From assembly GCF_002975405.1 (NCBI RefSeq), contig NZ_PCPS01000001.1, positions 868,001 to 932,000 of the forward strand: a stretch of 64,000 nt of DNA, read 5' to 3'. The position numbers and the translations under genes are program-made. Positions 2,636 through 17,732 of the stretch are shown one piece after another; position 1 is the first letter of the stretch; each line of letters starts with the position of its first letter. The notes beneath the pieces were generated by a model. That model was not told the origin of the DNA. It was given only the letters and a program-made list of their open reading frames with translations, and did not search any database. This DNA comes from Arthrobacter sp. MYb229. GTDB taxonomy: Bacteria > Actinomycetota > Actinomycetes > Actinomycetales > Micrococcaceae.

Positions 2636-4788
2636 GGCGTTCTCCTTTGTCGTTTTCCGGCACGTTCCGGTGATTCGGCGTGTGGTGGTGTGATGGGGGT
2701 GACGAGGCTGCGCAGCTGTGCTTCAACGGCGGCGCGAGATTGCCCGTATGCTTTCCTCGATGCGGCGATGATCTTCGCCGGGTCGCTGGTGCGCTGCGGG
2801 GTGTCCACGGTGCGACCAGATGACCAGTCGGTGACCGCGCCATCGCGGACAAGCTGGGCGTAGATATGCCTACTGGGAAGTGCGGTGAAATCTTCTGGTG
2901 CCAACCCGGGCGAGAGTCGCGACGCGTAGGTGGCATCGTGGCCGGCGAGTTGGAAGAAGATTTTGTTGCGGCAGTTCGCTTCGAATCCGCGCAGTAGTTT
3001 CGACGAGAGCTGATCGGTGTATTGGTGGCTCAGGTGAAATGCTGCGCCGAGTGATCGGCTCATGGCCAGCGCGTCGGCGATATCTACCGGGAAGCGTTCG
3101 AGGAACATCTGCGCTTCGTCCAGGTAGATCATCACGGTGCGGCGCAGTCGTTCCGGGACACGGACGCGCTCCTTGAGTGCTTCCCAGAGTTCACTGATTA
3201 CCAATGATCCGAGCAGTGACGCTGCTTCGGTGCCGAGCGTGCCAGAGTGCAGGGGTACGAGCAGGATCTTGTTTCCGTTGACGGCGTCGCGCAGGTTGAA
3301 GCGTGGTGAGGGTTGCGCCAGGATGCTGCGCAGCGGTTCGTGCAGAAAGAGTCGGAGCTTATTCTGGAGCGGTGCGATCGCCTGGGCACGGGCATCCGGT
3401 GACAGACTTTCGTACCATTGCCAGAATGGTGCGGCGTGCAGTGGGTCGGCGGCGATCCGGGGTGCCGTGAGTTTGTGCCGGAATCCTGGATTGGTCAGCA
3501 GGAGCGGCAGCATGGCGAGCGTGGGGTTCTCGGCGTGAGCAACCGCGTCCAACGCAAGCCGGAGGATGTCAGCCGATCGGGGTCCGAGCACGTCCTTTCC
3601 GTAAACAGCGGCGAAGAAGCTGAAGAGCTGATCTGCCACTAGTGCGGGTGAACGTCCGGCAAGATCCAGGGGGTTGAACCCGGTGGGTGTGTCATCGAGC
3701 GGATCGAGGAGTACCACGTCGTCTTTGCGATGATCTGGAACCTGTGTCAGCACGTCGGCCACGAGATCTTTGGGTTCGATCACGATGACTGGCCGGCCGG
3801 CTTCCATATCCTGCCGAATAAGGTTCAGTAGCAATGAGCTCTTGCCTGTGCCAGTGGGACCCATGACCCAGGTGTGTCGCCGTGAATCCATCTCAGAGAT
3901 ACCGATCCGCTGCGCTTCGCATCCTGGTGCTGTTGATGTAGCCAGAATGCGGTCGCCGGTTTTAGCGACGAACGAGGGGCGGATCAGGGCCGGATGCAGT
4001 GCGGGCAGTCCCGGGTACGGTTGGTTCGGATCACCAAATGGCCAAGCGGTCATGAGGGTGACCTCATTGATGCTGAGCTTGGTCGATCCAGGAAAGAGCG
4101 GCCACGTGCTCGCGGGGTTATTGATGACGCCACTGCGTTCTGGTGCAAGGCGCAGTTCCAGGCCAGGGCTGAGTGCGGCACGTAGCGCGCTCAGAATGCT
4201 GGTGGTCATCCGCTTGCGCCGGTCGGGTGTCGAAGCGGTGACACCGATGCGAATAATGGCACCGAATCCGAACGCTTCGGCCTTGACCTGAACATGCTTC
4301 AGGGCGGTTTGTGGTGCGGTTCGCTTGGCCAGTTGCTGATTTGCTGGTTTCGGCACGTAGCGGTGCCCGAGCACGATCTGGATCACGGCGGTTTCCTTTC
4401 CGCGAAGTCCGGTTAGGCTGGCGAGAACACCGCGGACGGATGCTTCATTGCCAGAAATATCCAGTGACTGCTGCGGTGTTGAGTAGATGACTTTGCGCGC
4501 GGTGGACACGGACTTCCGGCGGTCGTCTTCGGTGGCGGTGATGACGGTGCCTGGAACGAGTTGTTCGATGGTGCGGCGAAGCGCTGGTTCGAACTGGCGA
4601 TTGGTAGCCGCTAGGTATTCGATTCCCTGCGAGGTGGCGCGGGTTTCGAGAATAATCTGCGGCGCGTGGGTCAAGGATGCGAGGTGTTGGAGTGCCCCGA
4701 TGGCCTGCTCATATGGCAGTGGGCGTGCCCAGAAGATCGTGAACCACACAAGTTCGGTGCGCTGGCGGTACTTAGGGGAGCGGCTCAT
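2632..4788 (-). CDS. VirD4/TraM-like conjugative coupling ATPase
   Basis: A 718-residue P-loop ATPase of the type IV secretion coupling/DNA-pumping superfamily (DUF87/TraM/VirD4-like). The Walker A motif is GPTGTGKS at residues 310-317, following HTWVM. The Walker B motif is in VMIYLDEAQMFLERFP near residue 565, followed by an RQH-type Gln-rich motor motif (LSHQYTDQL). The first 300 residues are an accessory domain without visible membrane segments, so it may be soluble or depend on a partner for membrane attachment. It is expected to drive DNA through the conjugation channel. It starts at an ATGA overlap with the 78-residue gene upstream. No mating-pair formation genes or relaxase are in this window. 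Confidence 0.85.
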   Translation of the reverse strand: MSRSPKYRQRTELVWFTIFWARPLPYEQAIGALQHLASLTHAPQIILETRATSQGIEYLAATNRQFEPALRRTIEQLVPGTVITATEDDRRKSVSTARKVIYSTPQQSLDISGNEASVRGVLASLTGLRGKETAVIQIVLGHRYVPKPANQQLAKRTAPQTALKHVQVKAEAFGFGAIIRIGVTASTPDRRKRMTTSILSALRAALSPGLELRLAPERSGVINNPASTWPLFPGSTKLSINEVTLMTAWPFGDPNQPYPGLPALHPALIRPSFVAKTGDRILATSTAPGCEAQRIGISEMDSRRHTWVMGPTGTGKSSLLLNLIRQDMEAGRPVIVIEPKDLVADVLTQVPDHRKDDVVLLDPLDDTPTGFNPLDLAGRSPALVADQLFSFFAAVYGKDVLGPRSADILRLALDAVAHAENPTLAMLPLLLTNPGFRHKLTAPRIAADPLHAAPFWQWYESLSPDARAQAIAPLQNKLRLFLHEPLRSILAQPSPRFNLRDAVNGNKILLVPLHSGTLGTEAASLLGSLVISELWEALKERVRVPERLRRTVMIYLDEAQMFLERFPVDIADALAMSRSLGAAFHLSHQYTDQLSSKLLRGFEANCRNKIFFQLAGHDATYASRLSPGLAPEDFTALPSRHIYAQLVRDGAVTDWSSGRTVDTPQRTSDPAKIIAASRKAYGQSRAAVEAQLRSLVTPITPPHAESPERAGKRQRRTP

Positions 4789-5021
4789 GATTGGTCTCCT
4801 TCCCTGCTTCGCTTTTGATTACGGTCTGGACGGATGCGGCGAGACGTGTCCGGGTGCTGCTCGGTGAGCTGCTGAGCTTCGGCTTCTCGCTGCGCATCTG
4901 CCAGTGCCAGACGGATGGCGGCACGAGCGAGGGTGCGAATGTCGGGTGTTTCGCGGAGAACTCCGTGAGCGACGATGCGCCGGTTCTTATGGGAGCCGTG
5001 GGTGGAATTGTTTTTGGGCAT
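4785..5021 (-). CDS. Small basic element protein (MPKNN N-terminus)
   Basis: A 78-residue, strongly charged protein, likely helical (RTLARAAIRLALADAQREAE), not recognised. The start was chosen at ATG 5021, after AAAGGAGG with a 12-base spacer, in preference to upstream in-frame ATGs that lack a ribosome site. It is the first gene of the transfer sub-operon and overlaps the coupling ATPase start by 4 bases. Its MPKN N-terminus and leader resemble those of the gene at 5468-6055. A DNA-binding or relaxosome accessory role is a guess from charge and position. Confidence 0.65.
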   Translation of the reverse strand: MPKNNSTHGSHKNRRIVAHGVLRETPDIRTLARAAIRLALADAQREAEAQQLTEQHPDTSRRIRPDRNQKRSREGDQS

Positions 5022-5077
5022 GACGAAGATGAACCTCCTTTCCAGTAGGTGTTGCGGTGATGGGTATTGTGCCTGGT

Positions 5078-5141
5078 CATTGCGTGGATGCAACGGCCTT
5101 GCTGCGCATTACTATGAGCCAAACGTTGCGTGGATGCAACG
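5078..5141 (-). promoter_or_regulatory. Two dyad operators around a candidate promoter
   Basis: The 17-base string TTGCGTGGATGCAACGG occurs at 5080-5096 and 5126-5142, 46 bases apart. The second copy is a perfect dyad (CGTTGC/GCAACG, 6-base centre, 5124-5141); the first has one mismatch (5078-5095). On the minus strand a candidate -35 (TTGCAT, 5139-5134) and -10 (CATAGT, 5116-5111) with a 17-base spacer place one dyad over the -35 region and the other just downstream of the expected start. This layout fits repression of the 4785-5021 transfer genes. The repeats are seen; the promoter and regulator are inferred. Confidence 0.5.
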
Positions 5142-5209
5142 GGAAAATGCGGCTTTGGCAGAAACTACAACACCGACTGGAAGTTGATGAAAACGGTTGA
5201 GGGGAGACG

Positions 5210-5250
5210 GATTGGCGCACCTGGAATGGTGGTTCGAAGGTGCGCCAATC
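5210..5250 (-). terminator. Hairpin after the two-membrane-segment gene
   Basis: Thirteen-base perfect arms (5210-5222 and 5238-5250) with a 15-base loop lie about 20 bases downstream of the minus-strand gene ending at 5269. It probably limits read-through from the upstream sub-operon into the transfer genes. There is no immediate U-run. Confidence 0.55.
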
Positions 5251-5268
5251 ACGCGCGGCATCGGTTAG

Positions 5269-5475
5269 CTAGAAACGCGAGTTACGCCACCAACGCACCG
5301 CGACGACGAGCCCAGCCACCAGGCCAAGGACACTGAGGATCACGACGAGCGTTGGCCAGACGGATTCGATCAAGGATGCCGCCCATGCGAGGCCGACAAG
5401 CGCCAAGATGATTGAGAAGCAGGCGCTCAGCATGCCATCGAACCAGGAGCGAGGATCATTGCCGTTGCTAGTCAT
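5269..5475 (-). CDS. Small two-membrane-segment protein
   Basis: A 68-residue protein with two hydrophobic segments (about 17-37 and 40-60) and a basic C-terminus (RWWRNSRF), so probably an inner-membrane hairpin. The ATG at 5475 overlaps the stop of the preceding gene by 8 bases, which supports this start over a much longer in-frame extension that would run antisense-like through the preceding gene. Small membrane proteins of this sort are common in conjugative operons, but no family is recognised. Confidence 0.6.
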   Translation of the reverse strand: MTSNGNDPRSWFDGMLSACFSIILALVGLAWAASLIESVWPTLVVILSVLGLVAGLVVAVRWWRNSRF

Positions 5476-6055
5476 TGTGGCGCTCCACTTCGGCCAGGAG
5501 TGCGCGGTGCAGTCCAATGTTGACGAAGTCCAGTCCGAAGTGCAGCTGGTCTTTGACGTACCGCTTGGCGACGGCATAGAACAATGCTTGGCCGACTGCG
5601 TCAGACAGGAGCAGATGCCACGCGATGGAACCTCGACGGATGCCCCAGTTCTCTGCCCTGTCCATGAACTCGCAGGCAAGCACGTATTCATCGAGGGTAT
5701 TGAAACTCAGCCCGTTGGTGACGTGGAGGACATCGTGAGCGAAGCGGAGCGCATGGTTAGCCTCTGGGGTGCCAAAGACGGTCGCCGATGAATTGTCATC
5801 CGACACTGGCAGTGATTGGCCGGTAGTCTTTGACGCGGCGAAGCACCGTTTCAGATCCGAGTATGTACTGGGCGCGTCGGGAACGGCTTTCCAATCGAAT
5901 CCGTGGCAGGTCGCCAGCTCATTGGCAAGGTCGAACACGAAGCCGCGTAGGTCTGCTTGTGCTGCCCGGATCGCCGGGTGTCCAACGGTGAGCAGCTGCC
6001 CGCTGGGTGGGGTGGCTGCGCGTGATGGGGCGGAGTTCTGGGTGTTTTTCGGCAT
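5468..6055 (-). CDS. Unknown element protein
   Basis: A 195-residue protein of unknown function. The start at ATG 6055 is supported by AAGGGG with a 9-base spacer. The N-terminal 20 residues are polar and Pro/Ser-rich; the rest looks like a compact alpha-helical domain with no membrane segment. A histidine/aspartate-rich stretch (HALRFAHDVLHVTNGLSF, near residue 100) could bind a metal, but no catalytic motif is certain. It is translationally coupled to the small membrane protein downstream. Its MPKNTQNS start resembles the MPKNNSTH start of the gene at 4785-5021. Confidence 0.6.
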   Translation of the reverse strand: MPKNTQNSAPSRAATPPSGQLLTVGHPAIRAAQADLRGFVFDLANELATCHGFDWKAVPDAPSTYSDLKRCFAASKTTGQSLPVSDDNSSATVFGTPEANHALRFAHDVLHVTNGLSFNTLDEYVLACEFMDRAENWGIRRGSIAWHLLLSDAVGQALFYAVAKRYVKDQLHFGLDFVNIGLHRALLAEVERHND

Positions 6056-6428: not shown

Positions 6429-6738
6429 TGCGGTACTGCCTGATCTCCCAGGCGGCATATTCTGCGTAGCAGTCCGCGAGGTGGTTCAGCCTGGCGGTCG
6501 CGCCCGGGTCACCATCTGCAAGGAATTGAGCTTCCCTGCTGATCATGCCGGTCATCTGCATTGCTGCTGCGGTCACCATGCCAGCGGAGTGAACGCGGGA
6601 CGCGACCACTGAGCCGCGTGCGATCTCGGCATTCTGCGCCCTGGTCATGGATCTCATCTCTGGCTTGGTGAACCGACTGAGAATACCAGTGGCTGGCGGC
6701 TCAGCGTTGGCACCTGATCGGGGGATGATATTGCTCAT
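6421..6738 (-). CDS. First gene of the element operon, unknown
   Basis: A 105-residue Met/Ala-rich helical protein (GMVTAAAMQMTGMISREAQFL), not recognised. The ATG at 6738 follows AAGGAG with a suitable spacer; longer in-frame versions run into the divergent promoter region and are unlikely. It heads the minus-strand operon and overlaps the next gene by 8 bases. Confidence 0.6.
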   Translation of the reverse strand: MSNIIPRSGANAEPPATGILSRFTKPEMRSMTRAQNAEIARGSVVASRVHSAGMVTAAAMQMTGMISREAQFLADGDPGATARLNHLADCYAEYAAWEIRQYRNG

Positions 6739-6875
6739 TAGGAGAGCACTCCTTTGCACGTATGACTGAAAGGTATGGAACCTTTCGATCACGCCTATGT
6801 GGCGATGGAATAACTCTAAAATGAGCCCTGACCTCAATAAAAGCATAAGCGTGATAACTCTGCTACTGTCATCCC
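6739..6875. promoter_or_regulatory. Divergent promoter region of the element
   Basis: This 137-base AT-rich stretch separates the minus-strand operon from the plus-strand SAM-like gene. It holds a perfect 7-base dyad (GAAAGGT...ACCTTTC, 6768-6786) followed by a second imperfect one (6790-6808, CGCC/GGCG core), both in the leader of the minus operon. On the plus strand, TACTGT (6864-6869) ends 6 bases before the ATG of the SAM-like gene, so that transcript may be leaderless. The sites are seen; their function is inferred. Confidence 0.45.
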
Positions 6876-7181
6876 ATGAGTGATGCGCGGTATCCAGAAA
6901 ACCATATGGAGTTTGCGCCTGAAGCGCCGGATGAATGGGAAGAGTTTGCGAATCGGCGCGAGGCCCTTCTGCTGAACTATGGATACAACACGGCACGTGC
7001 TTACTGGGCTGATCTCCAGGACTGGGCTGAATGGGCGTATCGCCGGGGGAAGAATGTTCTGGCGCTTACCGAACAAGATAAGAAGGAATATGTTGCTCTC
7101 CACCGCAGGAGGAAATACAGCGAGAGCACGATTCGGCGGCGTTTGGTTGTCATGCGCTTGCTTGAACAGACGGAGCTGTGA
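6876..7181 (+). CDS. Stand-alone integrase-type SAM-like domain protein
   Basis: A 101-residue protein that corresponds only to the N-terminal SAM-like (core-binding) DNA-binding domain of tyrosine recombinases: NYGYNTARAYWADLQDWAEW, then a second helical pair (KYSESTIRRRLVVMRLL). The catalytic domain with its Arg-His-Arg-Tyr residues is absent, and the following 100 bases do not continue it in any frame. It may be the remnant of an integrase or a domain reused as a DNA-binding regulator. It diverges from the element operon. No Shine-Dalgarno sequence is visible, and a -10-like TACTGT lies 6 bases upstream. Confidence 0.75.
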   Translation: MSDARYPENHMEFAPEAPDEWEEFANRREALLLNYGYNTARAYWADLQDWAEWAYRRGKNVLALTEQDKKEYVALHRRRKYSESTIRRRLVVMRLLEQTEL

Positions 7182-7319
7182 CCCGTACTTGGTAGCTCCT
7201 AGATGCTTACCGTCATTGATCCCGCAAATTCGTATCGCGCATAACGTAGGTATGGGTTCAACCCGGTTGTATACATAGTCTTGACTGAATACTTCTTATG
7301 CTTCGTAATCCACGGCAGA

Positions 7320-7847
7320 ATGTGGGCAAGATCTAAACATACCGCTTCCGACAAGGATAATCGAAACGGATTCACGATCGTCGAGCTGCTGATCGTGATC
7401 GTGGTTATCGGTATTTTGGCGGCGATTACGATTGTTGCTTACAACGGCATCCAAAACAGAGCCTACGACACTACCATTCAAAGCGATCTGTCGTCGATGG
7501 CGAAATCACTCGAACTCTACAAGGCTGACACAGGTGTATATCCACAAAACGCAACCGAGCTGATCGCAATGAAAACCGCAGGCAACTACCTTCTTCGCGC
7601 AACTCGCAGCGCCTATGATCCGGTTAATAGCTTCATCTACTGCCAGAAGAGTGGCGGTGGCGCTTATGCGATCGTTGCGAAGAGTAAGTCCGGCAGAAGC
7701 TATATTTCAACCCACTCAAACTCGGCACCGACCGAATTTGCGGGATATTCAGCTACGCAGGTGCAGGTGTGCCCGAATGCCGGCATGGAAAGCACTGGTT
7801 ACTGGGGGTATGCGAACGGGACGTGGCAGGACGGATGGGTGTCATGA
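7320..7847 (+). CDS. Orphan type IV prepilin-like protein
   Basis: A 175-residue prepilin. A 17-residue charged leader ends in Gly and is followed by the processing site G|FTIVE, with the conserved Glu at +5, and the hydrophobic helix LLIVIVVIGILAAITIVAYNG. The globular part is Ser/Gly/Tyr-rich and has two cysteines (YCQK and QVCP) that could form the usual disulfide, plus a Trp/Gly-rich tail. ATG 7320 gives the expected leader length; an upstream TTG would add 13 residues. It should be cut by a prepilin peptidase and assembled into a pilus or pseudopilus, but no such genes are in this window. The coding sequence is AT-richer than the chromosome. Confidence 0.8.
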   Translation: MWARSKHTASDKDNRNGFTIVELLIVIVVIGILAAITIVAYNGIQNRAYDTTIQSDLSSMAKSLELYKADTGVYPQNATELIAMKTAGNYLLRATRSAYDPVNSFIYCQKSGGGAYAIVAKSKSGRSYISTHSNSAPTEFAGYSATQVQVCPNAGMESTGYWGYANGTWQDGWVS

Positions 7848-8427: not shown

Positions 8428-9996
8428 ATGGCCAGTAGCGTGAAGGAACAACAGCGAGCAGAACTGCACAAAACAATCTGGCAAGTAGCCAATGATCTTC
8501 GCGGTTCGGTGGACGGCTGGGACTTCAAGTCGTACGTCTTGGGCATACTTTTCTACCGCTTCATCTCCGAAAACCTCACCAGCTACATCAATACCGGCGA
8601 GCATGAGTCTGGTGATGCTGAGTTTGATTTCGCGCAGCTTTCTGACGATGAAGCTGAATTTGCCCGAGAGGAAATTGTCAACGAAAAAGGCTTCTTCATC
8701 CGACCTTCGGAACTGTTTGAAAACGTGCGCAAGCGTGCACAACAGGACGAGAACCTGAATGAAACGCTAGAAAGCATCTTCCGTGATATTGAGGGATCAG
8801 CAACCGGGACCGATAGCGAAGACGACCTCAAAGGCCTCTTTGACGACCTGAATGTAAACAGCTCCAAGCTCGGCAATACTGTGTCGAAGCGTAATGCCAA
8901 GATGGTCAAGCTGCTCGACGCGATCGGTGACCTCCCATTGGGCGGCAAGTTCTCAGACAACTCCATTGACCTATTTGGTGACGCCTACGAGTACCTGATG
9001 CAGATGTACGCATCTAGTGCCGGTAAATCCGGCGGCGAGTACTACACCCCGCAGGAAGTCTCTGAGCTGCTAGCAAAGATCACCACGGTCGGTAAGACCC
9101 GCGTGAATAAGGTGTACGACCCCGCCGCTGGTTCGGGCTCACTCCTGCTCAAGTTTGCCAAGGTACTTGGCAAAGAGAACGTGGGCGGGTTCTATGGTCA
9201 GGAAATCAACCTCACCACCTACAACCTGGCTCGTATCAACATGTTCCTGCACGATGTGAACTACGAGAACTTTGACCTGGCGCTGGGTGACACGCTGCTG
9301 GAGCCGCATCACTGGGACGATGAGCCGTTTGAAGCGATTGTCTCTAACCCGCCCTATTCGATCAAGTGGGAGGGCGACGCGAACCCAATCCTGATCAACG
9401 ATCCACGTTATGCGCCGGCTGGTGTGCTGGCGCCTAAGTCGAAGGCAGACCTTGCTTTCACGATGCATATGCTGCACTGGTTGGCGACCAACGGTACGGC
9501 AGCGATTGTTGAGTTCCCTGGCGTACTATACCGAGGGGGCGCTGAACAAAAGATCCGTAAGTACCTGATCGACAATAACTATGTTGATACGGTGATTCAG
9601 CTTCCTTCTGATCTGTTCTTTGGTACCACGATTGGCACCTGCATCATCGTGCTGAAGAAGTCGAAGAAGACCAATGACGTGCTATTTATTGACGGTTCGG
9701 CTGAGTTCGTGCGCGGAGGCAACAAGAACAAACTGAGCGAAGTCAACCAGCAGGCTCTGCTTGATGCGTTCACGAATCGTGAATCTTCGGAGTACTTCTC
9801 AAGACTCGTTGACAACAGTGAAATCGCCGCGAATGACTACAACATTGCCGTGTCATCGTACGTTGAGGCTGAAGACACTCGCGAAGTCATCGACATTACT
9901 GAGCTGAATACCAGAATCGAGCAGATCGTTGCCAGGCAGGCAGAGCTGCGCACATCGATTGATGCGATTGTGTCAGATCTGGAGGGCGTGAAGTGA
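8428..9996 (+). CDS. hsdM: Type I restriction-modification methyltransferase subunit HsdM
   Basis: A 522-residue N6-adenine methyltransferase subunit. It has the N-terminal HsdM helical domain (LHKTIWQVANDLRGSVDGWD), the AdoMet motif DPAAGSGS at 231-238 and the catalytic NPPY at 307-310, the gamma-class order expected of HsdM. With HsdS it methylates the target, and with HsdR it forms the restriction complex. The ATG at 8428 follows GGGAGAAAG; an upstream in-frame ATG lacks a ribosome site. Its end overlaps the GTG of hsdS by 4 bases. Length is normal and all motifs are intact. Confidence 0.96.
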   Translation: MASSVKEQQRAELHKTIWQVANDLRGSVDGWDFKSYVLGILFYRFISENLTSYINTGEHESGDAEFDFAQLSDDEAEFAREEIVNEKGFFIRPSELFENVRKRAQQDENLNETLESIFRDIEGSATGTDSEDDLKGLFDDLNVNSSKLGNTVSKRNAKMVKLLDAIGDLPLGGKFSDNSIDLFGDAYEYLMQMYASSAGKSGGEYYTPQEVSELLAKITTVGKTRVNKVYDPAAGSGSLLLKFAKVLGKENVGGFYGQEINLTTYNLARINMFLHDVNYENFDLALGDTLLEPHHWDDEPFEAIVSNPPYSIKWEGDANPILINDPRYAPAGVLAPKSKADLAFTMHMLHWLATNGTAAIVEFPGVLYRGGAEQKIRKYLIDNNYVDTVIQLPSDLFFGTTIGTCIIVLKKSKKTNDVLFIDGSAEFVRGGNKNKLSEVNQQALLDAFTNRESSEYFSRLVDNSEIAANDYNIAVSSYVEAEDTREVIDITELNTRIEQIVARQAELRTSIDAIVSDLEGVK

Positions 9997-11180
9997 GCCG
10001 TATCGATGAATTGATAGCGGAGCACTGTCCGGCGGGCGTTGAGCATAAAACCTTGGGCGACGTAGGTCAGTTTATTCGGGGTAATGGGCTGCAGAAGAAA
10101 GACCTGTTCCACGAAGGCTTTCCGGCCATCCATTATGGCCAGCTCCATACACTTTATGGCGTCTCGGCGAGTGAGACTTTATCTTTTACCACTCCTGAAC
10201 TCGCCTCGAAACTACGTCATGCGCGCCATGGCGATTTGTTGATTGCAACTACCAGCGAAGACGATGAAGCCGTGGCCAAAGCTACTGCATGGCTGGGTGG
10301 TACTGAAGTGGTCTTGAGTGGAGACGCATTTATCTATCGCCATGAGCTGGAACCTCGTTATGTTTCCTACTATTTCCAGAGCCGTCAGTTTCAAGATCAG
10401 AAGCAGCGCCACGTCTCCGGAACAAAGGTACGACGAATTTCTGGCTCATCGTTGGCCAAGCTAATTATCCCCGTTCCGCCGCTTGAAATTCAGCGTCATA
10501 TCGCAGATATTCTTGATACTTTTAGTAAAATGGAAGCGGAGCTGGAAGCGGAGCTGGAAGCTCGGAAACAGCAGTATGAGCATTATCGATCGGTCTTGGT
10601 ATCGAACTCACAAACCGGTGACCAGCTCTCTCTCGGAGAGATCGAAAACAGAGGAATAATCAAACTAGGTCGCGGAAAAGTAATTTCTAAAATGGCGTTG
10701 GATGCAACTCCAGGAAATTATCCAGTTTACTCTTCGTCGGGGACAGGCACCGGGGAGTTTGGCCGCTACGGCGACTATATGTTTGATGACGAGAGAATCA
10801 CTTGGTCTGTCGATGGAGGGGGGAGATTCTTCTATCGTCACCCACATAAGTTCTCTGTGACGAACGTTAGCGGTTGGATGACAGTCGACACTTCAGTTCT
10901 TAATGTTAAATATCTTTACTATGTTCTTACAACCCAATGGGAGAAACAGGAATTTAACTACACTCGAAAAGCCCACCCTTCTGTGATTCGAGACGTTTAT
11001 TCGATTTCATTGCCACCACTCGGCGATCAAGAGGAAGTTGTGCAAGCACTTGATAATTTCGATGCTCTTGTGAACGACAATTCGACAGGTCTTCCAGCCG
11101 AGCTTGCGGTGCGTAGTCAGCAATACGAGTACTACCGTGACAAGCTCCTCACATTCAAGGAGCTGGAGCCGGTCTCATGA
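9993..11180 (+). CDS. hsdS: Type I restriction-modification specificity subunit HsdS
   Basis: A 395-residue specificity subunit with the usual two target-recognition domains (about 1-165 and 200-345), each followed by a conserved helical spacer. The first spacer begins PVPPLEIQRHIADILDTF and the second PPLGDQEEVVQALDNF, both ending in a QYE(H/Y)YR motif. The first spacer contains the tandem EAEL repeat described separately. It starts with GTG at a 4-base overlap with hsdM. The second recognition domain is clearly AT-richer than the first (23 of 60 bases G+C at 10861-10920), as expected when recognition domains are swapped in by recombination. Confidence 0.95.
   Translation: MSRIDELIAEHCPAGVEHKTLGDVGQFIRGNGLQKKDLFHEGFPAIHYGQLHTLYGVSASETLSFTTPELASKLRHARHGDLLIATTSEDDEAVAKATAWLGGTEVVLSGDAFIYRHELEPRYVSYYFQSRQFQDQKQRHVSGTKVRRISGSSLAKLIIPVPPLEIQRHIADILDTFSKMEAELEAELEARKQQYEHYRSVLVSNSQTGDQLSLGEIENRGIIKLGRGKVISKMALDATPGNYPVYSSSGTGTGEFGRYGDYMFDDERITWSVDGGGRFFYRHPHKFSVTNVSGWMTVDTSVLNVKYLYYVLTTQWEKQEFNYTRKAHPSVIRDVYSISLPPLGDQEEVVQALDNFDALVNDNSTGLPAELAVRSQQYEYYRDKLLTFKELEPVS
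10533..10561 (+). repeat. 12-bp tandem repeat in the HsdS central spacer
   Basis: GAAGCGGAGCTG occurs twice in perfect tandem (10533-10544, 10545-10556), followed by a partial third unit GAAGC. It encodes EAEL-EAEL-EA in the long helix between the two recognition domains. In EcoR124I a 12-bp repeat encoding TAEL at the same place sets the distance between the two half-sites, and loss or gain of a unit changes specificity. That role here is inferred by analogy. Confidence 0.8.
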
Positions 11181-12019
11181 GTACAACTCCGGTGAATGTG
11201 CAGATACCTTCGGATACTGAAGCGCCGATCATTGCCGACTTTGTCGAGCATGCACTGCGAGTAGCGTATTTTGATCGCCAGCATTGGGCGTCCCTGCCCG
11301 CGAGCGACTGGGACGCACCTGGGGTGTATGTCTTGATGACAGCCGATGGTTCCAATCGTGTCTATGTTGGTCAAGCGCGGAAGTTGCGCGGCCGCTTGCA
11401 GCAGCACAACAACAAGGAAAAGCTTCCCTGGCATCGAGCGTTGGCGGTGAAGCGCGATACCACCGCGGGGTTCAACACGGCCGAGATCGGATATCTGGAA
11501 GGCCGTATCGCCGCTGAGCTGAATGCGTTGACTCAGATCACGGTAGTGGAGGGGCAGACGAGTGGGGACGAGACGCTGCCGAAGCACATGATGATCTCCC
11601 TGGATGCTTTCGTGAAAAGCATCCTCGGTGCGCTTCGCTTGGCTGGGTTGGATATTAGCCGGAGTAATCCTCAAACGCTGACCGAAGACGAGCAACCTTC
11701 AACTGCGCTAGTGCCATCTAACAAGCCGAATAAAACTGTGACGGTTGCTGACCTGGTTTCCAGCGGTCTACTCCAAGCAGGTCATGCGTTGTACCTGAGC
11801 CAGGCTGGAAGAGAAGCAGAAGGCAGTGTGACGGCGGATGGTGAGATCATCGTGCGCGGGGTTTCCTATAAATCCCCGAGTGCGGCAGCAAAGATTGTGC
11901 TTGACGGCCAGGCATCTAACGGTTGGATGACGTGGAAGGTCGGTAGCCCCTCCGGCTCACCACTGGATACATTGCGGCAACAATGGCTGGCCCAACAAGC
12001 AGCTGAGGCGGAAAAATGA
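11177..12019 (+). CDS. GIY-YIG nuclease with RAMA/DUF4357-like reader domain
   Basis: A 280-residue protein. Residues about 48-130 form a GIY-YIG nuclease domain: GVYVLMTADGSNRVYVGQA carries the GVY and YVG signatures, R84/R87-like arginines follow in KLRGRLQQH, and a Glu lies in AEIGYLEGRIAAEL. Residues about 188-265 (DLVSSGLLQAGHALYL through SPSAAAKIVLDGQASNGW) match the RAMA or closely related DUF4357 fold, predicted to read modified DNA. It overlaps hsdS and hsdR by 4 bases each, so it is an integral part of the operon rather than a passenger. A likely role is cleaving or sensing DNA with foreign methylation; this is inference. The domain calls are strong. Confidence 0.85.
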   Translation: MSTTPVNVQIPSDTEAPIIADFVEHALRVAYFDRQHWASLPASDWDAPGVYVLMTADGSNRVYVGQARKLRGRLQQHNNKEKLPWHRALAVKRDTTAGFNTAEIGYLEGRIAAELNALTQITVVEGQTSGDETLPKHMMISLDAFVKSILGALRLAGLDISRSNPQTLTEDEQPSTALVPSNKPNKTVTVADLVSSGLLQAGHALYLSQAGREAEGSVTADGEIIVRGVSYKSPSAAAKIVLDGQASNGWMTWKVGSPSGSPLDTLRQQWLAQQAAEAEK

Positions 12020-15000
12020 TCGAAGCACAGGCACGCAAATACGACACTATCGCAGTAAGCAATGAGAGCACCGTCGTTGCTGAGTTTCTCTCTGATTCCA
12101 CCAAAGAGACTGCGTATCAGTCCGAAGCCCAGCTGGAGCGGGAATTTATTGGCTTGCTGGAAGGCCAAGCGTACGAGTATGTGCTATTGACGAGTGAAGA
12201 GCATCTCGTCAAGAATCTTCGTACCCAGCTCGAGGCATTGAACCGTTTCACTTTTTCGGATACTGAATGGCAACGCTTTTTCAAGGAGCGGGTCGCCAGC
12301 ACCGGGGATGGCATCGTCGAGAAGACGGTGCGCATCCAAGAAGACCACGTCCAGTTGCTGACTCGGGATGACGGCTCGACGAAGAACATCACCTTGCTGG
12401 ATAAGCAGAATATCCATAACAACCGTTTGCAGGTGATCAACCAGTATGCGGTGGATCGCGGCGAGGGTGGGGCAAGTTTCTCGAACCGGTATGACGTGAC
12501 CGTTCTAGTCAATGGGTTGCCGATGGTGCATATCGAGTTGAAGCGCCGCGGCGTGCCGATTCGTGAAGCCTTCAACCAGATTGACCGGTACCAGCGTGAT
12601 AGTTTCTGGGCTGGCTCTGGCCTGTTCGAGTACGTGCAGCTGTTCGTGATCAGCAATGGGACGCAGACGAAGTATTATTCGAACACCACTCGCCGTCAGC
12701 ATGTGGCTGATGCGACGGGTATGAAGAAGAAATCGAAGACGTCCAATAGCTTCGAGTTCACCTCGTGGTGGGCTGATGCGCAGAACAAGCCGATTCTTGA
12801 TTTGACGGCGTTCGGCAAGACGTTTTTTGCCAAGCACTCCCTATTGAATATCCTCACCCGTTACTGTGTCCTGACTAGTGACCGGGTGCTGTTGGTGATG
12901 CGTCCGTACCAGATTGTGGCGACCGAAAAGATCTTGCAGAAGATCGATATCTCCACGAACTACAAGACGCTTGGTTCTCAGGAAGCGGGTGGCTACGTCT
13001 GGCACACGACCGGCTCTGGCAAGACATTGACCAGTTTCAAGGCTGCTCAGCTTGCTTCACGTCTGGAGAGCGTGGACAAGGTGCTGTTCGTTGTTGACCG
13101 TAAGGATCTGGACTACCAGACTATGAAGGAGTATGACCGGTTCGAAAAGGGCTCGGCGAACTCGAATAATTCGACTGCGGTGCTGAAACGGCAGCTGGAG
13201 GATCCTTCGAAGAGGATCATCATCACGACGATCCAGAAGCTCTCTACTTTTATCGCAAAGAACAAGGGTCATGAGATCTACTCAGGCCATATTGTGCTGA
13301 TCTTCGATGAGTGCCACCGCTCCCAGTTTGGCGACATGCACACGGCCATTACGAAGGCGTTCAAGCGGTATAACTTGTTCGGGTTTACGGGTACCCCGAT
13401 TTTTGCTGAGAACTCTGGCAGTGGCGGCAATCCGCAGTTGAAGACGACCGCGCAGGCGTTCGGGGAGAAGCTGCATACGTATACGATCAAGGACGCGATC
13501 ACCGATCAGAACGTTCTTCCCTTCCGTATTGATTACGTGAATACGATGAAGGTCGGCTCGGTCATAGACAAGCAGGTGTCGTCCATCGACACTGAGAACG
13601 CCCTACTGTCACCTGTGCGTGTTTCTCAAGTGGCCTCGTACATCTTGGAGCATTTCGATCAGAAGACGAAGCGATCCGTTGGCTATGCTTTGGGGGAGAA
13701 GCGTGTTCGTGGGTTCAACTCGCTCTTTGCCACGGCATCGATAACGGCTGCCAGGACGTACTACAACGAGTTCAAGCGCCAACAAGCTGAGCTAACGCCT
13801 GATCGCCGGCTGAAGATCGCTACGATCTTCTCTTATGCCCCGAATCCCGACTCAGAGGACGGGGTGCTGGAAGAGGAAGGGTTTGAAACCGAGAACCTTT
13901 CCGGGGACGCTCGCTCGTTCCTGGAAACGGCGATTGCTGACTACAACCAGATGTTTGGCACGAGCTACGACACGAGTTCGGACAGTTTCCAGAACTACTA
14001 CAAGGACTTGTCGCTACGGCTGAAGAACCGTGACTTGGACATGGCCATTGTGGTGAACATGTTCCTCACTGGCTTCGACGCAACCACGATGAATACGTTG
14101 TGGGTCGATAAGAACCTGCGTTCTCACGGGCTAATCCAGGCGTACTCACGCACGAACCGTATTTTGAACTCGGTGAAGACTTACGGGAACATCGTGAACT
14201 TCCGTGATCTGGAAGAAGCGACGAATGATGCGATTGCCCTCTTCGGCAATAAGGACGCAGCTGGCATCGTTCTGTTGCGGCCTTATGGCGAATACTACGA
14301 TGAGTATGCAGAGAAGACCTCGGCCTTGCTGGAGAAGTTTGTTCCTGGTCAGCATATTGACAGTGAATCTGCACAGAACGAGTTCATCAAGATCTATGGT
14401 GAGATTCTTCGTTTGAAGAACATCTTGACCTCGTTTGATGAGTTTGCTGGAAATGAGATTCTCTCGGAGCGTCAGGCCCAGGATTACCAGTCGGTATATC
14501 TGGATCTTTGGAATGAGCGGAAGAAGCATGATTCCGGTGAGAAGGAACAGATTACCAGTGACCTGGTGTTCGAGATTGAACTGATCAAGCAGGTCGAAAT
14601 TAACGTTGACTACATCCTGCTACTCGTGCAGAAATACCGCGAGGAGCGCGGCGACGGCGATGACAAGGAACTACGCGCTGGCATTTCCCGAGCGATTGAT
14701 TCCAGCCCTTCCCTGCGCAACAAGAAGGATCTGATCGAGAACTTTGTGGACTCTGTGTCTGTGGATGGCTCGGTTCAGGACGAATGGCAGGAGTACGTGC
14801 AGAAGCAGCGTGAGAGTGAACTTGAGGAAATCATTGCTTCGGAGAACTTGAAGCGTGAGCAGACGCTAGGGTTCGTTGATTTAGCGTTCACTGACGGTGT
14901 ACTGCGCACTACGGGCACAGAGGTCACGAAGATTCTGCCTCCCGTGTCTCGATTCTCGAAAGAGAAGAATCATGGAGATAAGAAGCGCCGCGTGATTGAA

Positions 15001-15063
15001 CGGTTGACTGTATTTTTTGAGCGGTTCTTTGGCCTGAGCGCAGAAGGTAGGAATAGAAATTGA
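12016..15063 (+). CDS. hsdR: Type I restriction endonuclease/translocase subunit HsdR
   Basis: A 1015-residue restriction and DNA-translocation subunit. The PD-(D/E)xK nuclease site is D160...E174-L-K176 in YDVTVLVNGLPMVHIELKRRG. The superfamily 2 helicase motor has TTGSGKT at 331-337, DECH at 431-434 and FGFTGTPIF soon after, with later motifs such as VVNMFLTGFDA and QAYSRTNR. The C-terminal helical domain contacts HsdM. The ATG overlaps the stop of the GIY-YIG gene, and its own stop overlaps the TTG start of the ATPase gene. All catalytic residues are present, so the enzyme should be active. Confidence 0.96.
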   Translation: MIEAQARKYDTIAVSNESTVVAEFLSDSTKETAYQSEAQLEREFIGLLEGQAYEYVLLTSEEHLVKNLRTQLEALNRFTFSDTEWQRFFKERVASTGDGIVEKTVRIQEDHVQLLTRDDGSTKNITLLDKQNIHNNRLQVINQYAVDRGEGGASFSNRYDVTVLVNGLPMVHIELKRRGVPIREAFNQIDRYQRDSFWAGSGLFEYVQLFVISNGTQTKYYSNTTRRQHVADATGMKKKSKTSNSFEFTSWWADAQNKPILDLTAFGKTFFAKHSLLNILTRYCVLTSDRVLLVMRPYQIVATEKILQKIDISTNYKTLGSQEAGGYVWHTTGSGKTLTSFKAAQLASRLESVDKVLFVVDRKDLDYQTMKEYDRFEKGSANSNNSTAVLKRQLEDPSKRIIITTIQKLSTFIAKNKGHEIYSGHIVLIFDECHRSQFGDMHTAITKAFKRYNLFGFTGTPIFAENSGSGGNPQLKTTAQAFGEKLHTYTIKDAITDQNVLPFRIDYVNTMKVGSVIDKQVSSIDTENALLSPVRVSQVASYILEHFDQKTKRSVGYALGEKRVRGFNSLFATASITAARTYYNEFKRQQAELTPDRRLKIATIFSYAPNPDSEDGVLEEEGFETENLSGDARSFLETAIADYNQMFGTSYDTSSDSFQNYYKDLSLRLKNRDLDMAIVVNMFLTGFDATTMNTLWVDKNLRSHGLIQAYSRTNRILNSVKTYGNIVNFRDLEEATNDAIALFGNKDAAGIVLLRPYGEYYDEYAEKTSALLEKFVPGQHIDSESAQNEFIKIYGEILRLKNILTSFDEFAGNEILSERQAQDYQSVYLDLWNERKKHDSGEKEQITSDLVFEIELIKQVEINVDYILLLVQKYREERGDGDDKELRAGISRAIDSSPSLRNKKDLIENFVDSVSVDGSVQDEWQEYVQKQRESELEEIIASENLKREQTLGFVDLAFTDGVLRTTGTEVTKILPPVSRFSKEKNHGDKKRRVIERLTVFFERFFGLSAEGRNRN

Positions 15064-17732
15064 CGAACCTAGAAAAGCAACTTGTTCAATGGTCAGACAA
15101 CCAATCTCCGTGGAAGCAAGACCTGCTTCGGCGCCTGGCCCTCGGTGAAATTCTAGCTGACGCTGATTACCGTACCTATGCTAATGCTGCGGTCAGCATT
15201 GAAGTGGACAAGACTGCACCATGGCGATCGAAGCCAGAAGATATGGGGTTATTCGAAGTTTTTAATCCACTGACCGAAGCTCACCTTACAAACATTTCTA
15301 GTGAACATGATCCAGTGAAGGTAACTCGCCTGCTTCATGTCCATGGTGCGAATGACCTTGCACCCGGGACAAACCTAGAATTTTCGCCGGACGGCTTGAC
15401 GATAATTGCCGGTAAAAATGGAAGCGGGAAATCTGGACTTGCGCGTATCCTCAAACAAGTGGCGGCCTCCCGCTCATCTGAGAAGATACTTCCCAATGTA
15501 TTTCAACCGGAAGTTACCCCAAAAGCTGTCGTGGGCTATTCTCTGGGAGATGAATCGCAAGGCGAAGAACTAACATGGGAACACGACTCGGAGCCCATCG
15601 AAAGTCCGATGAAGCGCGTTCGTATTTTTGATTCTCATGCTGCGACTGCCCAACTGGCTGGCTCCAATGAGGTCGCATATGTTCCGCCAACATTACAAAT
15701 TCTTGGCGAGTACACGGAGGCACTTCAAGAAATTGCAACGATTATCGAAAACGACCAAGTTCAGCAGAATTTGAGACGGGCGCAATGGCCCGACCTTGAG
15801 AGCGCTGCAGGACTCACGATTTTTGAAAATCTTGGTAAGCAGACTGCACTTGATGAACTTGAAAGAATTTCCGAATTAACTCCAGATGAACTTAAAGAGC
15901 TCGATGGCATTCCTGCAAAAATATCAGAGCTGACTACATCTAACCCAGCCACTCAGGCGGTCAAGGCTCGGAACATTGCCACCCAGTTCGCTGGCCTAGC
16001 CAAGAATATAGAGACAATCCAGAAAGCGCTTAGTGTTTCCGAAATTACCCTCGCTCAAAAACTCAAGACTGAAGTTCAAAACGCGAAGACGGGATTGGAG
16101 GATGCTCGGCGTGGTCTGAATCAGGATGGCATGATCACTGGTACGGGCAATGAATCTTGGCGAAGAATGTGGCTGGCAGCCAAAGAATTCAAAGAATCAT
16201 CGGACCATGAACATGACTTTCCTCAGGGCATTTCGATGTGCCCTCTGTGCGTCCAGACACTAAATCCAGAAGCAAAGACGCGGTTTGAGCTATTTTCAGA
16301 GTTTATGGCAAATGAAGCCCAAAAGAAGCTAATTGCGGCTCAGAGGCTTTGGGATGAAAAGAAGAACAGCCTGTCTAGTCTGACGATTAAAGGATTAGCT
16401 CCGGCCGATACTATCGCGCTAGTGGGTACGTACGATGAAACGCTAGCAGAATCGATTGAACCGATATTGACTCGGGCAGAAAGTCTCAGAAGTGCGATAG
16501 ATGAATCATCCCAGACTGATGCAGCCAGTGAGGTTCCTGATCCAGAAAATATATCGGAGTCTCTTGAAGCCCTCGCTAAGAAGATTCGTGAAGCCTCTCA
16601 GTCGGAAGAGGACAAAGCAACCAAGCTAGCCGAAATGCATAGCTCCGCAGAAGCAGTTGTCTTGCTTACTAAACGCCAACAGTCCCTATCTTTGCGGCAA
16701 AATATTGCAGCGAAGAAAACTGAGATAGGTGCCGAACACGACCGAGCAATTTTGATATCCCGTTTGTCACAAGCGAAGTCTGCATGTGGGACTAGTGGTG
16801 CTAGTCGCAAGAATTCAGAACTTTCAAAAGAATATGTGACTGCTGTTTGCGATCGGTTCGCCGAAGAATCAGAAGCCCTTGGATTACACCGGGTTCCTGT
16901 GGAACTCGTTTTTGATCGATCTTCTCGTGGCGTAAGCTTCATCAAGGTCAGCATCAAGGGCGTTGGTTCGACGGTAAATGGGGTACTCAGCGAAGGAGAG
17001 CAACGAGTAGCTGCAATTGCGGGTTTTTTTGCAGACCTCACTGAATCTGGCGATCAATCGACGCTGGTTTTTGATGACCCTGTGTCTAGCCTTGACCAGG
17101 AATTTAGAGTCAAGGTGGCTCAAAGACTTCTGCAAGAAGCTGAAAGTCGACAGGTTCTTGTTTTCACACATGACTTTACCTTTGTTCAATACCTTTACGA
17201 AGAGAAAGTCGCACGGGAACGGAAAGCCCGTGCTCAAGGTCTTGAGCATTCAGAGACTTTGACATACCTCCATATCGCAAGATCGCCGGAGGGGGCAGGA
17301 GTTCCCACCTCAGCAGAGGTTTGGCGTCACGTTAGCGTTAGGGAGCGTTTGGGCCGACTCAGGGAGCGCCAACAAGCAGCCGCAGCCCTTTTTAGAGGGA
17401 ATGATCTGATCGCCTATGAAAAAGAAGCTCGTGACATTGTGGGGGCGCTTCGTGAGACATGGGAAGTTTTTGTCGAGCAAGAATTACTAAATAATGTTGT
17501 TACGCGACACGAACGGAGTGTTCAGACGCAGCGTCTTAACAAAATACTGGAGCTACAAACTTCAGACGTTGCTGCAGTCGAATATGGGATGACTATCGAA
17601 TCCCGATATATGACAGGTCATGCTGCTCCAGCGTCGGACGCATCAGCACCGGTCGATCCTAGGTGGCTTCTTGGCGAAATTGACTCATTTGCGACGTTCC
17701 GTAAAGAGTTCCTTAAGCGAATTAGCAAGTGA
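15060..17732 (+). CDS. RloC/COG4694-like ATPase, candidate anticodon nuclease
   Basis: An 890-residue ABC/SMC-type ATPase. Walker A is GKNGSGKS (118-125), the signature LSEGEQR is at 643-649, Walker B with its Asp pair is LVFDDP (669-674) and the switch His is H704. Between the halves is a long coiled coil with a CPLC motif (C394, C397), a zinc-hook-like hallmark of RloC. C-terminal residues include R798-x3-E802 (RETWE) and downstream histidines at +15 and +52, resembling the Arg-Glu-His nuclease triad of PrrC/RloC, though the spacing is not the same. RloC cleaves tRNA anticodons when restriction is compromised. It starts with TTG overlapping the hsdR stop and is AT-rich. The ATPase call is firm; the tRNase activity is inferred. 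Confidence 0.8.
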   Translation: MTNLEKQLVQWSDNQSPWKQDLLRRLALGEILADADYRTYANAAVSIEVDKTAPWRSKPEDMGLFEVFNPLTEAHLTNISSEHDPVKVTRLLHVHGANDLAPGTNLEFSPDGLTIIAGKNGSGKSGLARILKQVAASRSSEKILPNVFQPEVTPKAVVGYSLGDESQGEELTWEHDSEPIESPMKRVRIFDSHAATAQLAGSNEVAYVPPTLQILGEYTEALQEIATIIENDQVQQNLRRAQWPDLESAAGLTIFENLGKQTALDELERISELTPDELKELDGIPAKISELTTSNPATQAVKARNIATQFAGLAKNIETIQKALSVSEITLAQKLKTEVQNAKTGLEDARRGLNQDGMITGTGNESWRRMWLAAKEFKESSDHEHDFPQGISMCPLCVQTLNPEAKTRFELFSEFMANEAQKKLIAAQRLWDEKKNSLSSLTIKGLAPADTIALVGTYDETLAESIEPILTRAESLRSAIDESSQTDAASEVPDPENISESLEALAKKIREASQSEEDKATKLAEMHSSAEAVVLLTKRQQSLSLRQNIAAKKTEIGAEHDRAILISRLSQAKSACGTSGASRKNSELSKEYVTAVCDRFAEESEALGLHRVPVELVFDRSSRGVSFIKVSIKGVGSTVNGVLSEGEQRVAAIAGFFADLTESGDQSTLVFDDPVSSLDQEFRVKVAQRLLQEAESRQVLVFTHDFTFVQYLYEEKVARERKARAQGLEHSETLTYLHIARSPEGAGVPTSAEVWRHVSVRERLGRLRERQQAAAALFRGNDLIAYEKEARDIVGALRETWEVFVEQELLNNVVTRHERSVQTQRLNKILELQTSDVAAVEYGMTIESRYMTGHAAPASDASAPVDPRWLLGEIDSFATFRKEFLKRISK

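Follow-up and report, generated by a model that had tools for sequence, protein, structure and literature searches.

A predicted GIY-YIG-RAMA nuclease of the PDC-S14 family, probably an optional accessory gene at the hsdS-hsdR junction of a type I restriction-modification operon

The window, that is, the whole 64,000-nucleotide stretch of Arthrobacter sp. MYb229 DNA analysed here, holds a gene for a GIY-YIG domain fused to a C-terminal RAMA domain, inserted between hsdS and hsdR of a type I restriction-modification (R-M) operon. Profile comparison places its product in PDC-S14, a known family of candidate phage-defence proteins, and it is probably an optional accessory ("plug-in") nuclease of predicted defence function at the hsdS-hsdR junction. 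The initial annotation had proposed a defence nuclease and was probably right in this. What is added here is the count of family members located by type I hsd genes and the optional status of the gene at this junction. The features of the locus are the following.

8428..9996, + strand: hsdM, type I N6-adenine methyltransferase subunit (TIGR00497, 719 bits; PF02384, E=5.3e-110)
9993..11180, + strand: hsdS, specificity subunit with two target domains (PF01420, E=9.6e-28, two stretches)
10590..11048, + strand: second HsdS target domain, swapped among congeners (blastn blocks of locus L026 against the window)
11177..12019, + strand: GIY-YIG-RAMA gene (PDC-S14), 280 aa, ATG start, ATGA overlaps with hsdS and hsdR
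11177..11656, + strand: N-terminal GIY-YIG domain, residues 1-160 (Pfam, conservation, model; Y51, Y63, R73, H77, E108)
11660..11737, + strand: disordered linker, approximately residues 162-187 (pLDDT below 50 for 162-185)
11738..12001, + strand: RAMA domain, residues 188-275 (Pfam, Foldseek, profile alignment to the MPND chain)
12016..15063, + strand: hsdR, type I motor and nuclease subunit (TIGR00348, 556 bits; EcoR124_C, E=5.2e-68)
15060..17732, + strand: second accessory gene, AAA_13/PDC-S06 ATPase with RloC-like anatomy (PDC-S06, E=2.1e-161)

The type I gene set around the GIY-YIG-RAMA ORF is complete (hsdM, hsdS and hsdR). The hsdM product has 522 aa counted from the ATG at 8428, the start of hsdS runs 4 bases into the end of hsdM, and the C-terminus of HsdR is of the EcoR124 type. 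Given that hsdS ends at 11180 and hsdR starts at 12016, the ORF shares an ATGA with each of them, and the 4-base overlaps noted in the initial annotation were confirmed at both ends. Embedding in a known defence operon, the hallmark looked for in a PDC-S14 gene, was thus found in the order hsdS-GIY-hsdR. The fifth gene of the operon, coding for the 890-aa PDC-S06 protein, has a TTGA overlap with the end of hsdR. Its product carries a Walker A motif at 118, a zinc-hook-like CPLC at 394 and R798-x3-E802 near the C-terminus, an anatomy which we take to match that of RloC, and it is a candidate RloC-like guardian. No tblastn match to this gene was present in the fetched stretches L026, L010 and L011.

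Both domains of the fusion gave Pfam matches above the cut-offs, RAMA (PF18755) with 86.1 bits against 35.2 over residues 174-275 (E=1.9e-24) and GIY-YIG (PF01541) with 27.7 bits against 22.6 over residues 48-89, in agreement with the fusion as originally described. The C-terminus had been called "RAMA/DUF4357-like", and only the first half of that name held, since DUF4357 (PF14267) reached 28.1 bits in this protein, under its curated cut-off of 38.4. RAMA is the correct name and DUF4357 a related family for the window protein. In the alignment of 63 members, in which the window protein is included, the DUF4357 model was matched by 56 and PF01541 by just 12, both at E 0.001.

The full-length AlphaFold2 model (8-sequence alignment, mean pLDDT 78.7) consisted of two folded parts and a disordered linker, with 10-residue blocks at pLDDT 81-92 in the RAMA part. 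Foldseek matched it to the MPND-DNA complex 7ydw_A (TMt 0.81, rmsd 2.1, 32% identity) and also to CcrM 6pbd, and the structure check proposed for the C-terminal domain therefore returned a RAMA fold; a GIY structure was absent among the Foldseek matches listed for this model. When the GIY domain was modelled alone (28 sequences), mean pLDDT was 90.7 and the order of elements was strand-strand-helix-strand-helix, with UvrC GIY-YIG domains as the top Foldseek neighbours. Because this structural match is weak (E=0.11), the GIY assignment rests mainly on Pfam and on the superfamily motif (two Tyr motifs, Arg, His/Tyr/Lys and Glu), which is present. Y51, Y63, G65, R73 and E108 are invariant in all 63 aligned members and H77 is kept in 60 of them; Y51, Y63, R73, H77 and E108 presumably have the catalytic roles of their counterparts in GIY-YIG nucleases. 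An alignment column with Asn in 56 of the 63 members has Glu in six, and the window protein (E125) is among the six; this and the small number of PF01541 matches temper confidence in the nuclease assignment.

With respect to known families, PADLOC gave a full-length match to PDLC04921 (residues 2-277 on 2-278 of 280, E=1.8e-114), one of the PDC-S14 models (PDLC04921-04925, PADLOC-DB 2.0.0), and PDLC04921, 04923 and 04925 were matched by 63/63 aligned members at E 1e-10. No feature compared sets the window protein apart from PDC-S14. It must be noted that the PDCs were found through "guilt-by-embedding" and are described as not experimentally validated (PMC10855318; PMC12988326). In PMC10855318, an overlap of PDC-S14 with GAO_29, a system apparently acting in a restriction-like manner, counts for a role in defence; that 57% of the 14 PDC-S14-bearing P. 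aeruginosa strains fell in the phage-susceptible group counts against it. A PDC-S14 of Paenarthrobacter is listed in PMC11719660. In 2015, PMC4420470 had drawn attention to a Lactococcus plasmid whose gene list shows a GIY-YIG gene following hsdS. Searches of the journal literature brought up no functional study of a GIY-YIG-RAMA fusion and no activity data for a PDC-S14 member. Phage-borne copies gave zero matches in 50,697 phage records (tblastn, E 1e-5), and a phage-borne gene was consequently discarded as a candidate.

The tie to type I R-M was surveyed in Actinomycetota by four genome searches (58, 396, 396 and 394 genomes, in overlapping sets) and one contig scan (3 loci). Forty-six distinct members with both domains were retained, under the rule that the match to the A1 profile starts before position 70 and reaches beyond 225 of 279. 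Neighbouring hsd genes were detected by phmmer with our own reference sequences, so that "none detected" does not prove absence. A same-strand type I hsd gene lies within 2.5 kb of 27 of the 46 members: 17 are placed between hsdS and hsdR, with a gap to hsdR of up to ~0.9 kb (L053, L071), five have the order hsdR-hsdS-GIY-hsdM and five another arrangement. The placement for which a survey had been suggested is thus that of 17/46 members. The remaining 19 comprise one by a type ISP gene (L100), one by a divergent hsdM (L074), both set apart, and 17 for which the 2.5 kb around them showed no hsd gene. Of these 17, L035 and L109 are close to where their contigs stop, so that one flank is visible for 287 and 537 bases respectively; the GIY gene of L035 sits after a ResIII/DEAD helicase gene. 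L012, L016/L020/L036, L066, L069/L107, L078 and lower partial matches were excluded as broken or partial, and L039, L025 and L124 had no full-length match. L029 was retained despite its seemingly frame-shifted C-terminus, and L057 was classed as type I via a weak HsdR match (46 bits).

For other phyla the sole basis was a non-random set of 19 plasmid records, chosen for taxon spread from 12 + 52 records. Seventeen of them hold a member, in type I loci in 11 cases (five between hsdS and hsdR) that span Pseudomonadota, Actinomycetota, Bacteroidota, Chlorobiota and Rhodothermota; one of the other six lies beside a divergent hsdR (L123, set apart) and five have no hsd gene detected. The 63-row tree consisted of two deep clades. 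The RAMA-type clade has 13 rows, of which eight belong to type I loci; the DUF4357-type clade has 50, with 30 from type I loci and three not classed. On this tree the type I state requires at least 11 changes, 10 of them forced by well-supported branches. Members pair with HsdR of differing types, EcoR124_C and EcoEI_R_C. As a control, 17 RAMA-only loci (L079-L095) gave no hsd match, a weak comparison given their flanks of 1.5 kb, mostly on the downstream side.

Some of the surveyed loci deserve a separate description. In L097 (2719-7114) three genes overlap in series, coding for a UvrD-like helicase, a 443-aa protein that neither Pfam nor PADLOC matched and a GIY-DUF4357 protein; no hsd gene was detected near, and the three may form a system of their own. 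In L111 an Abi_2 gene (6654-7712) separates the GIY gene from hsdM, and the HsdR of that operon is similar to the EcoEI-type protein of L029. On the Rhodothermus plasmid L118 (5004-10807) the member is convergent to opposite-strand genes for a DEAD/DEAH helicase, a nucleotidyltransferase and a DNA methyltransferase, which are perhaps another restriction-like host system.

The status of the gene at the junction was read from the relatives of the window HsdR. Upstream of hsdR in the best 30 of 46 matches (found in 44/347 genomes; the window is among the 30), hsdS directly abuts hsdR in 21, with a 4-base overlap in 17 of these, and a GIY gene occupies the junction in seven, three of RAMA type (the window counted) and four of DUF4357 type; the other two are one PrrC insert and one unresolved case. 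On a 33-row HsdR tree, GIY presence requires at least five changes. This patchy presence requires several gains or losses, and the GIY gene is an exchangeable passenger at the hsdS-hsdR junction. Since 21 of the 30 HsdR relatives have no GIY gene, it is an optional plug-in and not a core type I subunit, which would be a constant part of the operon family; the latter candidate was rejected. In this regard, the overlaps agree with the statement of the initial annotation that the protein is made in step with the restriction complex, but the gene is optional, most of these operons having none at that junction.

An auxiliary type I subunit that would process ends or collisions generated by HsdR was also considered. 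The overlap of the gene with hsdR and the type I association across five phyla speak for it, but the kin operons that have no GIY gene, the use of the hsdS-hsdR junction by two deep clades alike and the copies with no hsd genes detected make such a subunit very unlikely.

Other accessory genes occupy similar positions. In L132, from a genome of the same family whose HsdR is 75% identical, the minus-strand gene at 4587-5651 at the hsdS-hsdR junction codes for PrrC (E=5.8e-89). DarTG2 has been reported at this junction in an E. coli strain, with the remark that defence genes may have a hotspot of recombination there (PMC12255303). In the Ruaniaceae relative (L011) an Mrr-type restriction gene (4867-5790) lies between hsdM and hsdS, so that this operon has two accessory nuclease genes. 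At the corresponding hsdM-hsdS position of Glutamicibacter sp. PS (L010, 5357-5818) there is a gene for a 153-aa protein that neither Pfam nor PADLOC matched under the limits applied.

PrrC, which has been termed an R-M guardian (PMC12707154), suggests a further reading, in which the type I enzyme would keep the GIY-RAMA protein silent until phage inhibition of that enzyme sets the protein free. The PrrC gene of the sister operon L132 and DarTG2 at the same junction argue for it. In activity the two differ, PrrC being an anticodon nuclease acting on tRNA and the window protein a predicted DNase. Against a guardian of this kind, which we consider unlikely, 17/46 members have no hsd gene detected nearby, and members pair with both HsdR types mentioned above.

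The GIY-RAMA protein is 91% identical to that of each of two congeners, HsdM 92% (same length) and HsdR 93-95%; TRD2 of HsdS, in contrast, is 22-24% identical, and TRD1 97% or 47%. Identity to the Ruaniaceae relative is 68% for GIY-RAMA, 67% for TRD1 and 18% for TRD2, which leaves TRD2 (residues 215-350) at 18-24% amino-acid identity across the three relatives. In the blastn comparison of L026 with the window, the match ends at 10589 and restarts at 11049, upstream of the GIY gene, and the blocks flanking the exchanged target domain have 84-90% DNA identity. GIY-RAMA does not track HsdS specificity, and the candidate that it follows the HsdS site was rejected because target domains were swapped while GIY-RAMA stayed nearly constant.

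RAMA evolves faster than the GIY domain: 154/160 residues of the GIY part and 72/88 of the RAMA part are identical to L026 (Fisher p=0.0003). In the comparison of the window with the two congeners, dN/dS was 0.017-0.027 for GIY and 0.064-0.103 for RAMA (dS ~0.9-1.6). Both parts are under strong purifying selection, and junk or a remnant was rejected on these values. A homing endonuclease, or what is left of one, that invaded the hsdS-hsdR junction finds some backing in a weak match to the group I intron endonuclease model TIGR01453 (E=0.0012). Nevertheless, the usual DNA-binding modules of homing endonucleases differ from RAMA. The GIY dN/dS of ~0.02, overlaps that keep the operon readable and the many members located elsewhere are likewise against it, and even though a remnant was suggested for the Lactococcus plasmid gene (PMC4420470), we regard homing as highly improbable here.

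The RAMA domain gives some indication of how the protein would reach DNA. Ser113, Ser115 and Trp135 of MPND touch the DNA backbone and mutants nearly lose binding; the MPND domain is reported to bind double-stranded DNA with no base contact and with no effect of 6mA, although an earlier pull-down cited there had MPND prefer 6mA, and a specific base contact is given as absent for CcrM RAMA too (PMC9963953). In a profile alignment with the MPND chain, S233, S235 and W250 of the window protein align with these contact residues, by our own offset-of-one count in chain numbering; SPS is not kept in CcrM. S235 and W250 are conserved in 13/13 RAMA-clade members, and across all 63 members 19 have W and 33 have R at position 250. 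The alignment supports RAMA as a putative double-strand DNA dock, and base reading by it is possible.

The initial annotation had RAMA read a modified base and GIY-YIG cut, so that the operon would restrict unmodified DNA through HsdR and modified DNA through GIY-RAMA, a special case of the accessory nuclease. This reading of GIY-YIG-RAMA is not new: such two-domain fusions, with domains identical in kind to those of the window protein, have already been suggested as 6mA readers in type IV systems (PMC11037411). The passages of that source on RAMA fusions do not mention a type I operon, whereas the window fusion lies inside one. The wH-GIY-YIG type IV enzymes Ahi29725I and Apa233I likewise join GIY-YIG to a separate DNA-binding or reader domain; theirs is a winged helix with a 6mA preference demonstrated in vitro, in place of RAMA, and methyltransferase neighbours are rare for them according to a heading, while the window gene has one in its operon (PMC11037411). 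That source also gives 17 cases of PLD-wH enzymes near type I methyltransferases in which no conflict is predicted. Together with these precedents and the pull-down result for MPND, a two-layer logic proposed for EVE proteins beside type I R-M (PMC7641849) favours the reader, as does the RAMA/DUF4357 tail, the C-terminal domain family of the window protein, which also terminates proteins with GmrSD_N in place of GIY-YIG (PMC4619093; L030, L032, L038).

On the other hand, the backbone-only contacts of MPND and CcrM RAMA, and the indifference of MPND binding to 6mA, speak against a reader, as do near-identical GIY-RAMA proteins accompanying differing HsdS target domains. In addition, the genome has three N6_Mtase matches (376.8, 369.9 and 65.1 bits), namely the operon HsdM, another HsdM-like protein, encoded on contig C18, and a weaker third; the C18 gene overlaps a putative HsdS ORF. 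A general 6mA reader would face the marks of both HsdM proteins, and a nuclease triggered by 6mA generally would be dangerous to the host if its methyltransferases are active. This clash arises only if RAMA reads 6mA in HsdM contexts, and the base read would most likely be a hypermodified one rather than 6mA generally. Taken together, we hold the modified-base reader as a tentative possibility.

Returning to the accessory nuclease as such, the window protein is most likely a co-translated, autonomous back-up DNase. The autonomy is suggested by the 17/46 members for which no hsd gene was detected in the surrounding 2.5 kb; these members could also have another role. The GIY-RAMA protein would be produced whenever the R-M enzyme is produced; RAMA would dock it on double-stranded DNA via backbone contacts of S233, S235 and W250, and the flexibly tethered GIY-YIG domain would nick or cut the docked DNA. 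The outcome would be a further layer of restriction for invaders that HsdR fails to stop. Candidates for what may distinguish foreign from host DNA are a hypermodified base, broken ends or another DNA state, and signalling by the type I enzyme.

A broader and unlikely, more speculative proposal is that the junction is a general "back-up slot" for swapped effectors (PrrC, which is likewise an accessory gene at this position in type I loci, DarTG2, GIY-RAMA and GIY-DUF4357). GIY-RAMA would then be the DNA-cutting counterpart of PrrC, restrained by the type I enzyme translated alongside it or by marked host DNA, and freed once a phage has blocked that enzyme or introduced DNA that the enzyme is unable to cut.

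If the optional accessory nuclease is confirmed, many type I operons would consist of two layers, the second effector being exchangeable while the specificity machinery stays untouched. The 30 best HsdR matches form a natural series (21 without the GIY gene, seven with it, one with PrrC and one unresolved) that makes the contribution of the add-on testable, and the RAMA-nuclease proteins offer an entry to the question of whether RAMA reads modified bases.
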